From Halothiobacillaceae bacterium (GTDB lineage Bacteria; Pseudomonadota; Gammaproteobacteria; Halothiobacillales; Halothiobacillaceae): 64,000 bases of DNA. The notes beneath the pieces were generated by a model. The model did no database searches and was not told the origin of the DNA. It saw only the letters and a program-made list of their open reading frames with translations. The stretch is from contig JAFGUH010000143.1 of the NCBI GenBank assembly GCA_016938615.1, positions 1 through 64,000 on the forward strand. Direction: 5' to 3'. This document shows, one piece after another, positions 4,608 to 64,000 of this stretch; within the stretch, counting starts at the first letter, position 1; each line of letters begins with the position of its first letter. The position numbers and the translations under genes are program-made.

Positions 4608-5933
4608 TCAGTTCAGGTGGTGCCGCTTGAGCTTGCGATAGAGGGTGCGTTCGCTGACGCCCATCCGTTCGGCGACCTCGCGTCGATTTCCGTCGTAGCG
4701 CTTGAGCAGGGCGGTGATCCGTTCCGCTTCCAGTTCCGCCAGCGACAGGGTCTCCAGTGCGCGTGCGGGCGTCTGTTCCGACCCGGTTGTTCGTAGGTTG
4801 GGCTCGTCCTCGAATCCTAGGTCTTCCGACGTCATGACGCCGTCGTCGCACAGGGCGACGGCCCGATGCAGCCGATTCTTCAGTTCGCGGACATTGCCGG
4901 GAAACGTGTGTCCCTCCAATCGCTTCATCGCCTCGCGGGTGAGGCGGCAGGAATCACCGCGCTTGCGGTTGATCGAATCCAGCAACGAGGTAATCAGGGA
5001 GGGTAGGTCTTCCTTGCGCTCGCGCAAGGGTGGCAGGTCGATGGTGATGCAGGCGAGCCGATAATAGAGATCCGCGCGGAACTCGCCTCGGTCGATCATG
5101 GCCTTCATGTCCCGGTTGGTGGCCGCCACCACCCGCACATCGGTACGCACGATCTCTTCGCCTCCCAGGCGGCGGAAGCTGCCCGTCTCCAGGAGACGCA
5201 GCAGCTTGGCCTGCATCGCCAATCCGAGCTCCCCGATCTCGTCGAGGAAAAGCGTCCCGCCGTTCGCCTGTTGCGCGAGTCCTGTACGTCGGCCGGCGCA
5301 GCCGGTGAACGAGCCGCGCTCGTGGCCGAACAGCTCCGATTCGAACAGCGATTCGGTCAGGGTGGTGCAATCGACGGTGACCATCGATCGATCGGCCCGT
5401 TGGCTGTGGCGGTGCAGCCGTTCGGCGGCCAGTTCCTTGCCGGTGCCGCTCTCGCCGAGCAGCAGGACGCCGAGGTCGCAACCCGCGGCCCGATCGAGTT
5501 CGTTGAGTGTCCGGATGAACGCCGGACTGGACCCGCCGATCATGGTCGCCGCTTGCGGCCCGTCGCTCCGGGGCAGGGGCGTCATGCTCTCGCCAAGCAG
5601 CAAATCGCCGTTCGTGTCACGGACCGCGTGGCCATGAATGCGGACCCGCTCGGGGTTGCCGGCGGCGTCGAAATGGGTGTGCATCACTTCGTGCGTCTCG
5701 CCCGTCTCGAAGACCTGCTGGTGCGGGCAGTCCTCGCCCGCGAGATGGCAGGGGTGATCGCGGTGGTGCGACACCTCGTGGCAGCGTCGCCCGACTACCG
5801 AATCGGGCGATGTGCCGTACTTCTGGCAATAGCGCGAGTTGGCCGCGACGATTCGATAGTCGCGATCGACCAGCACGAACGGACGCTCCATGGCCTCCAT
5901 CACGTCCAGGGCATCCAGACCGGCATTCTTCAT
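4608..5933 (-). CDS. Sigma-54-dependent activator with cysteine-rich PAS domain
   Basis: A 441-residue enhancer-binding protein. Residues about 12-115 form a PAS sensor with four notable cysteines (C36, C51, C62, C69) in the pattern CHEVSHH..PC..GEDC, which suggests metal, haem or redox sensing. The AAA+ domain has Walker A GESGTGKE (160-167) and Walker B TLFLDE (227-232). The sigma-54 contact loop reads GSFTGC instead of GAFTGA. A Fis-type helix-turn-helix ends the protein (NRREVAERMGVSERTLYRKL). The start at 5933 has AAGGAGATGAGG upstream; the track start is 13 codons earlier. It is divergent from the flavoprotein gene, whose promoter is sigma-54 type, so that gene is the obvious target. 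Confidence 0.93.
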   Translation of the reverse strand: MKNAGLDALDVMEAMERPFVLVDRDYRIVAANSRYCQKYGTSPDSVVGRRCHEVSHHRDHPCHLAGEDCPHQQVFETGETHEVMHTHFDAAGNPERVRIHGHAVRDTNGDLLLGESMTPLPRSDGPQAATMIGGSSPAFIRTLNELDRAAGCDLGVLLLGESGTGKELAAERLHRHSQRADRSMVTVDCTTLTESLFESELFGHERGSFTGCAGRRTGLAQQANGGTLFLDEIGELGLAMQAKLLRLLETGSFRRLGGEEIVRTDVRVVAATNRDMKAMIDRGEFRADLYYRLACITIDLPPLRERKEDLPSLITSLLDSINRKRGDSCRLTREAMKRLEGHTFPGNVRELKNRLHRAVALCDDGVMTSEDLGFEDEPNLRTTGSEQTPARALETLSLAELEAERITALLKRYDGNRREVAERMGVSERTLYRKLKRHHLN

Positions 5934-6030
5934 CACGTACACCTCATCTCCTTGGTGTGTGCGACGCATCATTAGCGATGCAATGCGTGCCTGTCAATGC
6001 TGTCGTCAGCTGGGCTGTCTGACTGACATT

Positions 6031-6053
6031 CATGACAGGGTGTCACTGTCATG
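6031..6053. promoter_or_regulatory. Palindromic upstream activator site
   Basis: CATGACAG, 7 bases, then CTGTCATG: a perfect 8-bp inverted repeat, flanked by further TGACAT and ATGTCA half-sites. It lies between the divergent activator and flavoprotein genes, about 75 bases upstream of the sigma-54 promoter, the usual place for an enhancer-binding protein. That the neighbouring activator binds here is inference. Confidence 0.7.
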
Positions 6054-6112
6054 TCATATGTCATTGCCGCGCCATGGTTTCGTAACGTGTTGAAATGAAA
6101 TCGTTAAACCTG

Positions 6113-6128
6113 TGGCACGGTTTCTGCT
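6113..6128 (+). promoter_or_regulatory. Sigma-54 (-24/-12) promoter
   Basis: TGGCACGGTTTCTGCT matches the consensus TGGCAC-N5-TTGC except for one base, with GG and GC exactly 10 bases apart. Transcription would start near 6139, leaving a leader of about 60 bases before the flavoprotein ATG. It sits next to a sigma-54 activator gene. Confidence 0.82.
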
Positions 6129-6199
6129 CCTTCCCCGCTCGAGATCGGGCGTGCGCTACGTCCGCTCCCGACGAAACGCGAGGAGAAAAGGAGCAAGAC

Positions 6200-7549
6200 A
6201 TGGCAGATTTCAATCGCAGAAACTTTCTCAAGGTATCCGGCATCGGCATGACTGCCGCGATGGGCGGTATCTCCGCCGGCCAGGCGCAGGCGGCCGAGCA
6301 CAAGGCACCGATGGCGGGTGTCGCCCGCAAGATCCCGCTGCCGAAGGCCAAGGGCCAGCGCGTCGTGATCATCGGTGGCGGGGTGTCGGGCTTGACCATC
6401 GCCCGCTACCTGAAAAACCAGGATGTGGACTTCGACGTGGTCCTGCTCGAGCGCAACGCGCTCTATCAGTTCTGCCCGATCTCGAACCTGTACATGGTCG
6501 GCGGCATGGACCTCGGGTACTTTACCCGCAGCTACCTCGATGCCGCTCGCAACGGGGATTACACCTACGTCCAGGCGACTGCCTACGACGCCGACCTCGA
6601 CAGCCAGGTCGTCTACACCGACCAGGGGCACGTTGCCTACGACTACCTCGTGGTCGCCCCGGGGATCGATTACAACTACGGATCGATCGGCGTCGAGGAC
6701 CCGGTCGACGAATACAAGCTGCGCCAGCGGTACCCGGCCGGCTTCGTGCCGGGTTCCGAGCACCTGACGCTTCGCCACAAGCTGCAGAACTTCAAGGGCG
6801 GCGTGTTCGTGAACACCACCCCACCGGGCAACTACCGTTGCCTGCCCGCCCCGTACGAGCGCACCTGCCTGATCGCCGACTACATGAAGAAGAACAAGCT
6901 CAAGGGCAAGGTGATCCACCTCGACGCGAACCCCGACATCACGATCAAGAAGAAGGGGTTCCACGCGGCGTTCGAGGAACTCTACTCCGATTACGTCGAG
7001 TACATCCCCTCGTTCGAATTCAATGGGGTCGACGTGGAGAACAAGGTGGTCCACTCCACCTTCGACAAGGTCGAGTTCGACGATGCCTCCATCTACCCGC
7101 GGGTGCGGGCCTCAAGGCTGCTCGAGGCCCTGAACATCGCCAAGATGGACAGCCCGCAGAAAGAGGCCGACATCGATCCGTTCACCTACGCGGTCAAGGG
7201 TTACCCAAATGTGTTCGCCACTGGCGATACGCGCTGGATGCCTTACTCCAAGAGTGCGAACACCGCCAATTCCGAGGGGCACTTCGTCGCTCGCGTGATC
7301 GCCAATGCCTCCAAGGGCAAGGAGACCGAATGGGTTAGCCCCCATACCGTCTGTTTCTCCATGGTCGAGTACGACCCGCTGGAATCGATCATGGTCGACG
7401 CGCACTACGGCTACGACAAGAAGAAGAAAAAATTCCATTTCGCGAACGTCCACCTGCAAGAGGAATGGAACGAGTCGCTTGGCCAGGGAACGATCGCCTG
7501 GGGTGAAAGCATCCTGAGCGACATCAGTGGCGGGGCGGCTGGCGGGTAA
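6200..7549 (+). CDS. Tat-exported FCSD/SQR-family flavoprotein (sulfide dehydrogenase-like)
   Basis: A 449-residue FAD oxidoreductase. The N terminus NRRNFLKVSG is a twin-arginine signal, and AQA at about 29-31 is a plausible cleavage site, so it works in the periplasm. The FAD-binding GGGVSG is near residue 60 and the second FAD motif NVFATGD near 338. Cysteines C92 (QFCPISN), C214 and C223 (YRCLPAPYERTC) and C385 follow the flavocytochrome c sulfide dehydrogenase pattern. No cytochrome subunit (fccA) is adjacent, so the electron acceptor is unknown. The start has AAGGAGCAAGAC directly upstream. The substrate could be sulfide or another sulfur compound; that is inference. Confidence 0.85.
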   Translation: MADFNRRNFLKVSGIGMTAAMGGISAGQAQAAEHKAPMAGVARKIPLPKAKGQRVVIIGGGVSGLTIARYLKNQDVDFDVVLLERNALYQFCPISNLYMVGGMDLGYFTRSYLDAARNGDYTYVQATAYDADLDSQVVYTDQGHVAYDYLVVAPGIDYNYGSIGVEDPVDEYKLRQRYPAGFVPGSEHLTLRHKLQNFKGGVFVNTTPPGNYRCLPAPYERTCLIADYMKKNKLKGKVIHLDANPDITIKKKGFHAAFEELYSDYVEYIPSFEFNGVDVENKVVHSTFDKVEFDDASIYPRVRASRLLEALNIAKMDSPQKEADIDPFTYAVKGYPNVFATGDTRWMPYSKSANTANSEGHFVARVIANASKGKETEWVSPHTVCFSMVEYDPLESIMVDAHYGYDKKKKKFHFANVHLQEEWNESLGQGTIAWGESILSDISGGAAGG

Positions 7550-7731: not shown

Positions 7732-8652
7732 ATGAAGATGGATATGAAAACCCGTTTCACTGGCCGTTCGTGGCTGGTTTTGGGCACGGTGTTGACTGCG
7801 CTGGTGGCGACTTCCTCCGCGCAGGCCGGCAGCGGCCGATTCCTCGCCACCGGTGGCATCCAGTCGCTCGACGGCGCTGCGGGCGGGGGCATCAATCCCT
7901 GGGCGGTCATCGCCGGATACGGCACCAGCAATCAGTGGGGGGCGACCGCCTCGTACACGAATGTGACCCTGCCGGATTTCAACGTGAATCAACTGGGTGC
8001 GTCGGTCGGCATCAACAATCGTTTCGAGCTTTCCTACGCCTATCAGCAGGGCAATCTGTCGGGCGCGCTCGACGGCCAGAACATTGGGCAGCACATCCTG
8101 GGTGCGAAAGTGCGCCTCCTCGGTGATGCCATCTACGACCAGGACACGCCGTTGCCGCAACTCGCGCTGGGCGTGGAGTACAAGCAGAACCTGAGCGGCT
8201 CGGACATGCTGACTGACGGCGGCGCCCTCGGCGGGGCGGTCGACGACAGCGGGACCGACGTCTACCTCTCGGCCACCAAGGTCATGATCGGCGGATTCTT
8301 CGGTTACAACTGGCTGGTGAACGCGAACCTGCGCTACACCAAGGCGAACGAAACCGGTCTTCTCGGCTTTGGTGGCCCCGGCGAGGACGACTACGAGCTG
8401 CGTCCGGAATTCAGCACCGCGGTTCTGGTTCGTCCCGATGTCGCCATCGGCTACGAGTACAAGCAGATGGGTGACAACCTCTCCGGTGCCGGCTTGAAGG
8501 AATCGGATTGGCACGACGTGTTCATCGCCTACTTCCCCAACAAATCAGTGTCGTTCGCAGTGGCCTACGCCCACCTCGGTGACGTCGGCGGCGAGGCGAT
8601 CGACTACACGGATGAAAACGGCATCTACCTGAATGCGACGGTGTCGTTCTGA
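7732..8652 (+). CDS. DUF3034 family outer-membrane beta-barrel protein
   Basis: A 306-residue protein with a Sec signal peptide (hydrophobic core about residues 13-26, cleavage after SSAQA). The mature part begins GRFLATGGIQSLDGAAGGG and continues as alternating aromatic beta strands ending in a C-terminal phenylalanine, typical of outer-membrane barrels. The opening matches the DUF3034 family. The start at ATG 7732 follows AAGGAG. Its place between the exported flavoprotein and the exported globin suggests a channel or anchor for that periplasmic system; no function is established. Confidence 0.82.
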   Translation: MKMDMKTRFTGRSWLVLGTVLTALVATSSAQAGSGRFLATGGIQSLDGAAGGGINPWAVIAGYGTSNQWGATASYTNVTLPDFNVNQLGASVGINNRFELSYAYQQGNLSGALDGQNIGQHILGAKVRLLGDAIYDQDTPLPQLALGVEYKQNLSGSDMLTDGGALGGAVDDSGTDVYLSATKVMIGGFFGYNWLVNANLRYTKANETGLLGFGGPGEDDYELRPEFSTAVLVRPDVAIGYEYKQMGDNLSGAGLKESDWHDVFIAYFPNKSVSFAVAYAHLGDVGGEAIDYTDENGIYLNATVSF

Positions 8653-8698: not shown

Positions 8699-9181
8699 AT
8701 GATCGATGCAATGAAAACGCCGCAGGGCCTGTGGTTGAGGGCCATCATGGCCGTGGTGCTGGGCGCGATGTCGATGGCAGCGACGGCGGCGACCGAATCC
8801 GAGGCGTCCAAGGCCGAAAACACGCCGTCCGAGTACTACTACGACTTCGGCAAGAAGGCCGGCATCAAGACCATCATCGATGACTTCGTCGGCGTGGTTG
8901 CGGCGGACAACCGGATCAACCAGTACTTTGCCGGAGCCAACATCCCGCGGCTCAAGATGGCCCTGACCAACCAGGTCTGCGGCGCCCTGGGCGGCCCCTG
9001 CGAATACAAGGGTGCCAACATGAAGCAGGTCCACAAGGGTATGGACGTGACCGAAGCGGCCTTCAATGCGCTGACCGAGGACCTCATGGTTGCGATGAAC
9101 AAGCACAACGTCCCGCTCGATGCCCAGAATCACCTGATCAAGATCCTGGCTCCGATGGCGCGCCCGATCGTCACGAAGTGA
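8699..9181 (+). CDS. Exported group I truncated haemoglobin
   Basis: A 160-residue protein. Residues about 1-32 form a signal peptide (LRAIMAVVLGAMSMAATAA), so the globin is predicted to be periplasmic, unlike most truncated globins. The mature domain (about 45-158) carries the family marks DNRINQYFAG, the glycine motif GGPC, and the proximal histidine in MKQVHKGMD. The usual B10 tyrosine position appears to be Val in DDFVGVV. Two cysteines flank the glycine motif (QVCGALGGPC). It probably binds O2, NO or sulfide. It follows the DUF3034 gene by 46 bases and ends at a terminator, so it is the last gene of the module. Confidence 0.88.
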   Translation: MIDAMKTPQGLWLRAIMAVVLGAMSMAATAATESEASKAENTPSEYYYDFGKKAGIKTIIDDFVGVVAADNRINQYFAGANIPRLKMALTNQVCGALGGPCEYKGANMKQVHKGMDVTEAAFNALTEDLMVAMNKHNVPLDAQNHLIKILAPMARPIVTK

Positions 9182-9248
9182 CCAGTCGCGCGCCGGTCCC
9201 GGCCCATAGCTGGGCCGGGTAGGGTGTCATTCGTACTCCTCCCATTGG

Positions 9249-9279
9249 CCACCTTCCGTTTCGGGAGGTGGTTTTTTTT
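9249..9279 (+). terminator. Terminator of the flavoprotein-DUF3034-globin unit
   Basis: Stem CCACCTTCC / GGGAGGTGG with loop GTTTC and eight T residues, about 70 bases after the globin stop codon. Confidence 0.92.
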
Positions 9280-41778: not shown

Positions 41779-42544
<766 letters not shown>

Positions 42545-63641: not shown

Positions 63642-64000
63642 CTATATCAACCGCTTACGGTCAGTTGATGAGGCGATTCCCATCGCTTCCCGGTACTTGG
63701 CGATCGTCCTTCGGGCGACGTCGATCCCTTCATCACCAAGCATGGTCGCAATCTTGGCATCGCTCAAGGGCTTCTTGGGATTTTCTTCCTCGACGAGCTT
63801 CTTGATGCGTGCACGGATGGCCGTGGCGGAGCATTCGCCGCCGTCGGCCGTGCCGACGTGGCTCGAAAAGAAGTACTTGAACTCGAATACGCCCCGTGGA
63901 GTGAGCATGTACTTGTTGGTGGTCACCCGGCTGACCGTGGACTCGTGCAACTCGAGTGTCTCGGCGATTTCGCGCAGCACCAGGGGTTTCATGGCGATCT
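63642..64000 (-). CDS. rpoN: RNA polymerase sigma-54 factor, C-terminal part
   Basis: The 3' end of rpoN; the gene continues beyond the window edge. Visible are the C-terminal DNA-binding region with [30 protein letters not shown] and the RpoN box [10 protein letters not shown] that reads the -24 element, then the usual end RKRLI. It is the sigma factor for the promoters at 6113 and 19983. The internal Met listed as a start in the track is not the real one. Confidence 0.96.

Follow-up and report, generated by a model that had tools for sequence, protein, structure and literature searches.

The intergenic region between a divergently transcribed sigma-54 activator gene and a flavoprotein gene in a Halothiobacillaceae genome raises two questions: does it hold a circuit through which the one gene controls the other, and to which signal would such a circuit answer? 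The window, by which we mean the whole stretch of 64,000 nucleotides that was analysed, had been annotated before by a sequence-only reading, which placed a sigma-54 promoter box and a perfect palindrome between these two genes, and both were found at that location (Table 1). On the evidence set out below we consider it likely that the locus is a FisR-type reactive-sulfur switch, in which the activator, a cluster of TGTCA/TGACA half-sites and the sigma-54 box would drive an operon encoding the flavoprotein, a DUF3034 protein and a globin.

Table 1. Features of the locus, with positions in the window
Feature	Position	Strand	Remarks
FisR-like sigma-54 activator	4608-5933	-	Pfam PAS_4, Sigma54_activat, HTH_8
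Putative enhancer region, seven TGTCA/TGACA half-sites	5992-6063		half-site starts 5992, 6024, 6033, 6041, 6047, 6052, 6059
Perfect palindrome CATGACAG-N7-CTGTCATG (full CATGACAGggtgtcaCTGTCATG)	6031-6053		overlaps the dyad and one more half-site
Candidate operator, dyad TGACA-GGG-TGTCA	6033-6045		inside the palindrome, off-centre
Sigma-54 promoter -24/-12 box TGGCACggtttcTGCT (= TGGCACGGTTTCTGCT)	6113-6128	+	start site predicted at about 6139
FCSD-like flavoprotein	6200-7549	+	Pfam FCSD_central; twin-arginine type leader RRNFLK
DUF3034 protein with leader	7732-8652	+	Pfam PF11231, E = 2.3e-93
Truncated haemoglobin with leader, predicted exported	8699-9181	+	Pfam Bac_globin, E = 8.2e-12
Intrinsic-terminator-like hairpin and T run	9247-9273	+	across the region scanned, such matches are no commoner than expected by chance
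rpoN (sigma-54) DNA-binding domain, truncated by the end of the window	63651-64000	-	PF04552, E = 1.2e-68 at G000:C16:63651-64127

The activator and its cysteine triad

The activator combines an AAA+ domain (PF00158, E = 5.6e-62) and a Fis-type HTH (PF02954, E = 2.5e-11) with a PAS domain that carries a cysteine triad, C51-x10-C62-x6-C69. Its start was taken as the ATG at 5933, near which the ortholog alignments begin, with an alternative in-frame ATG at 5972. The C-x10-C-x6-C triad is invariant in all 42 of the aligned relatives, and a search with the PAS domain alone returned matches in 74 of 369 genomes of the class. The best match in the plasmid collection is a homolog in Cupriavidus metallidurans CH34 (42% identity over 97%), the cysteines of which, at positions 53, 64 and 71, align with C51, C62 and C69 of the window protein. 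This homolog is divergent from a gene for a metallo-beta-lactamase-fold, persulfide-dioxygenase-like protein (best match, the sulfur transferase/dioxygenase Blh) and a gene for an SQR-like flavoprotein. In FisR of Cupriavidus pinatubonensis a tetrasulfide between C53 and C64 has been reported (PMC8614764), and the same protein activates sigma-54 transcription of sulfide-oxidising genes, according to the accounts of Li et al. 2017 given in PMC7315123 and PMC8469610. Given this match in cysteine numbering, assignment of the window protein as FisR-like is well supported, and its sequence makes sulfane sulfur the likely signal. The FisR of Acinetobacter functions without the sensor cysteines (PMC7315123), so that the triad is no proof of the ligand. 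The activator was not found in any of ten other species of the same genus examined, and the locus therefore looks accessory.

The putative divergent operon

The flavoprotein shares with the FccB/FCSD flavoproteins (PDB 5n1t, 3vrd, 1fcd) the FCSD_central domain and the twin-arginine type leader, matches 5n1t with E = 3.4e-42 and retains their three cysteines in the alignment (in FCP, YRC and TVC). In FCSD flavoproteins these three cysteines serve as the flavin attachment site and a redox pair. Unlike them, it is followed by the DUF3034 and globin genes, neither with a match to a cytochrome family, so that no cytochrome c subunit is encoded with it and we class it as FCSD-like only. It is about 30-36% identical to the canonical relatives and falls in a separate subfamily, within which it shares 48-75% identity with members from Sulfurimonas, Halothiobacillus and the genome G172. 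The Sulfurimonas members (two loci, L038 and L039, 48% identical) stand without a FisR-like activator nearby, which suggests transfer between classes and a different control.

The DUF3034 protein is possibly an outer-membrane barrel. DUF3034 genes lie near FisR-like genes in four other genomes, and in three such loci (L125, L136 and L137) the sigma-54 boxes upstream of them score 0.91-0.98; a FisR-like activator is present in 8 of the 18 DUF3034-bearing genomes (hypergeometric 0.014, ignoring shared ancestry). Neither the DUF3034 gene nor the globin gene was found beside the flavoprotein gene in G172 (L107) or Halothiobacillus (L036). The globin is a predicted-exported truncated haemoglobin within an operon of the sulfur-oxidation type, and none was found beside other flavoproteins. 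The hairpin listed last before rpoN in Table 1 likely ends the operon.

The sigma-54 promoter box

The claim that the promoter box departs from consensus at one position holds: compared to TGGCAC-N5-TTGCW there is a single mismatch, the GG-N10-GC spacing is kept, and a box equally good on either strand arose in 0.03% of 3000 dinucleotide shuffles of the 266-bp intergenic region (5934-6199). Within this region both the box and the half-site cluster exceed chance. Over the whole 64-kb window, the bare pattern with one or two mismatches gave 22 matches against 24 expected; such matches being this common, the case for the box rests on its location and its conservation. When three flavoprotein upstream regions were aligned lengthwise the half-site core aligned and the promoter boxes did not, and hence the 420 bp upstream of each activator were scanned for sigma-54-like sites at fixed positions and in both directions. 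In the divergent direction, the top-scoring sites of the window and of L108, L109, L110, L112, L113, L114 and L115 reach 0.80-0.95 (shuffle p 0.00-0.05), and that of the Cupriavidus locus has a score of 0.84 (shuffle p 0.03). These boxes lie 120-200 bp from the activator start, that of L114 excepted, with half-sites in between; the nearest relative, L107, has a poor box (0.76, shuffle p 0.13). Judged by these matches, most divergent orthologs have a putative sigma-54 box with the same position and orientation. The same 420-bp scan found no box in the activator direction in the window, in L108-L110 and L112-L115 or in the Cupriavidus locus. A sigma-54 promoter for the activator gene itself was rejected, there being no good box pointing that way, and the single sigma-70-like match is at chance level.

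The sequence-only reading had also counted it in favour of the circuit that promoter, enhancer, activator and rpoN occur in one window. The rpoN gene is real, and it lies partly inside the window, from about 63651 onward. It is the only copy in the genome, some 57 kb from the promoter box; since one rpoN serves the whole genome, we treat the co-location as coincidence and dropped it as evidence.

Half-sites, dyad and palindrome

The extra half-sites noted by the earlier reading proved to be the stronger signal: the 266-bp region holds seven TGTCA/TGACA half-sites against a shuffle mean of 1.1, and none of 3000 shuffles reached seven. The palindrome is exact, and CATGACAGggtgtcaCTGTCATG has no other match with 0-1 mismatches in the 2.4-Mb genome. 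A palindrome with 8-bp arms arises in 7.5% of 3000 dinucleotide shuffles of 5934-6199; taken alone it is only mildly unusual and weak as evidence. In an unbiased k-mer count of the 140-bp regions upstream of 43 activator genes, TGACA/TGTCA is the top 5-mer (137 seen, 19.5 expected), CATGACA ranks among the top 7-mers, and half-site density is 3.19 per 140-bp region against 0.10-0.35 in neighbouring and internal control stretches, figures that overstate the number of independent events, as the 43 regions share ancestry and the relatives belong mainly to one class. The TGACA-N3/4-TGTCA dyad is present in 8 of 18 clade loci, with a mean of 1.4 when half-site positions and orientations were permuted and none of 5000 permutations reaching 8. 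It is rare in the ten related genomes, in seven of which one copy adjoins the activator (in G172 both copies, the only two of that genome do so). No dyad was found near the activator in G382, G261 and G021, and the exact operator geometry thus varies.

By these comparisons the conserved candidate operator is the TGTCA/TGACA half-site cluster with its TGACA-N3/4-TGTCA dyad. The N7 palindrome was set aside in this role because the orthologs keep the dyad and because of the shuffle frequency given above. The proposal that the divergent activator drives the promoter through an upstream enhancer stands in part: conservation in unrelated gammaproteobacterial families supports it strongly, with the dyad and half-sites, rather than the palindrome, as the operator unit. 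The operator motif may already be defined in the FisR paper (Li et al. 2017).

The genome-wide palindrome search that had been put forward as a way to define a regulon was run and, at 0-1 mismatches, returned the one match named above. The TGACA-N3/4-TGTCA dyad of 6033-6045 likewise has one match in the whole 2.4-Mb genome, and because it occurs only once there is probably no wider regulon in this genome. Several candidates were discarded: a 2-mismatch palindrome at the start of a cytochrome b561-like gene on C93, triple half-site clusters on C4 and C212 that are a 7-bp tandem repeat (TGACATC), and a cluster on C205, the only other intergenic one read, that lies upstream of a phoB-like gene and fits a Pho box. 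A further triple half-site cluster is found on C251. The near-consensus Pho box on C205, CTGTCATgtcgTTGTCAT, is located at G000:C205:3291-3314 (L156), upstream of the phoB-like response regulator gene.

Gene arrangement in relatives

The divergent pair is also found in the closest relative, G172 (L107), where the flavoprotein is 75% and the activator 60% identical. In Halothiobacillus (L036) the arrangement is tandem, and TGGCATaacaaaTGCT and TGTCATGACA sites precede the flavoprotein gene. The commonest neighbours of related activators are SQR-type flavoproteins, DsrE, TusA, persulfide dioxygenase and FCSD-like proteins; DUF3034 also occurs. In a sister clade with mostly GAFTGA in the L1 loop (L129-L131, L133, L139, L140, L142 and L143), a gene for an SQR-type flavoprotein lies directly upstream of the activator gene in the same direction, and in most of these loci TGTCA sites are densely clustered in the short stretch between the two genes. 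In two Pseudoalteromonas loci (L073, L074) triad-bearing FisR-like activator genes are transcribed divergently from genes for cytochrome bd oxidase, and TGTCA half-sites lie in the gap; this oxidase, which tolerates sulfide, may there be controlled by reactive sulfur.

An altered sigma-54 contact loop

The L1 motif of the activator, which makes the sigma-54 contact, reads GSFTGC and not GAFTGA. In a maximum-likelihood tree the window activator falls in a 19-member clade (97/89), 17 members of which have GA/SFTGC, one GAYTGS and one GAYTGA; the sister groups have mostly GAFTGA, as have the six other intact activators of this genome that were examined. The window also holds a sigma-54 activator remnant (41841-42544, + strand) that comprises the second half of an AAA+ domain, an apparent frameshift and then a Fis-type HTH, and is without the N-terminal half and the GAFTGA region. 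The string GAFTGC was not found in the literature searched. One could imagine the clade-conserved cysteine as a second sulfur or redox switch, seated on the loop that contacts sigma-54, so that the regulator would be gated both there and at the PAS domain; we think this quite improbable, and a sensing role for the loop cysteine is speculation.

Proposed mechanism

In the FisR-type switch that we favour, activator dimers would bind the half-sites between 5992 and 6063, centred on TGACA-N3-TGTCA about 100 bp upstream of the start site. The N-terminal PAS domain would sense sulfane sulfur, in the form of polysulfide or persulfide derived from sulfide, through a link formed between two of its three cysteines, and this link would free the AAA+ ring, which would then contact sigma-54-RNA polymerase at the TGGCAC-N6-TGCT box and so open the promoter near 6139. 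The induced flavoprotein, once exported, would oxidise sulfide or polysulfide in the periplasm, with the DUF3034 envelope protein and the exported globin made alongside. Bound activator probably represses its own gene, since half-sites sit just upstream of it.

Alternative explanations

The same circuit might answer to something other than sulfane sulfur, with the PAS cysteines sensing redox state, a metal, an iron-sulfur cluster or nitric oxide and the globin pointing to NO or oxygen stress. Three cysteines could indeed bind a metal, a truncated globin is part of the operon, and the bd oxidase genes opposite the Pseudoalteromonas activators fit NO or sulfide stress equally. However, bd oxidase is sulfide-tolerant too, no globin was found next to the relatives, and the commonest neighbours of related activators, from SQR-type flavoproteins to persulfide dioxygenase, are those listed above; a non-sulfur signal is, in our judgement, unlikely.

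Two further readings concern the machinery rather than the signal. With its altered L1 motif, which sets it apart from the six intact GAFTGA activators of the genome, the protein might no longer depend on sigma-54 and might act as a sigma-70 regulator or repressor, like TyrR and HupR. Yet GSFTGC keeps the F and T of GAFTGA, GA/SFTGC is kept across the clade, a sigma-54 box stands at the target, and a survey of activators (PMC3162934) gives A2 to S (LevR) and A6 to S (PrpR) as validated and A6 to C as probably functional, so we hold loss of sigma-54 dependence to be very unlikely. Alternatively, the TGTCA direct repeats could be a Pho box that places the region under PhoB, and hence phosphate starvation, instead of the divergent activator: GTGTCACtgtcATGTCAT at 6040-6057 fits CTGTCAT-N4-CTGTCAT with 3 mismatches, and elsewhere in the genome a box with a single mismatch precedes phoB. 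The 11-bp direct-repeat spacing is present in just 2 of the 43 related upstream regions, however, while TGACA-N3/4-TGTCA and other spacings recur; half-site enrichment tracks the activator gene across families; and PhoB works with sigma-70, whereas the promoter box here is of the sigma-54 type. The Pho box at 6040-6057 was rejected on its spacing and its mismatches, and control by PhoB strikes us as extremely improbable.

Comparison with known systems

The FisR-type switch proposed here most resembles the FisR-pdo-sqr loci of Cupriavidus (C. pinatubonensis JMP134 and C. metallidurans CH34, L072), which likewise have a divergent PAS-AAA+-Fis activator with C-x10-C-x6-C, a sigma-54 box upstream of a divergent sulfide-oxidising operon and clustered inverted half-sites between the genes. 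The targets differ, being PDO and SQR in Cupriavidus and an exported FCSD-like flavoprotein, DUF3034 and globin here, as do the repeats (CTGCCA/TGGCAG in the CH34 region, TGTCA/TGACA here) and the L1 motif (GAFTGA in Cupriavidus, GSFTGC here). FisR of Acinetobacter baumannii (A1S_1707, controlling A1S_1708-1711) is also a divergent sigma-54 activator beside sulfide-oxidation genes with a predicted sigma-54 promoter (PMC7315123), but there the sensor cysteines are missing and the operon is pdo-sqr-tauE-hsd. In the NorR-norVW system of Escherichia coli, too, a sigma-54 activator has several sites upstream of the promoter that it controls, and its N-terminal domain represses the AAA+ ring (PMC2941729). 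Its signal is different, as NorR senses NO via the iron of a GAF domain, whereas the activator here carries its cysteine triad in a PAS domain. The NorR dyads probably point the opposite way to the dyad in the window.

Significance

The divergent layout of activator, half-sites and sigma-54 box is already known; the target genes, the binding motif and the L1 detail are, as far as we have found, new to the FisR family. The TGTCA/TGACA half-site with its dyad, supported in 43 loci, would make targets of the widespread FisR-like sensors predictable across sulfur-oxidising gammaproteobacteria. With its cysteine shared across the clade, the sigma-54-contact loop offers a natural test of how strictly GAFTGA is required. 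Finally, the locus links reactive-sulfur control to an FCSD-like flavoprotein, to DUF3034 and possibly to an exported globin, and so offers a lead for poorly characterised parts.
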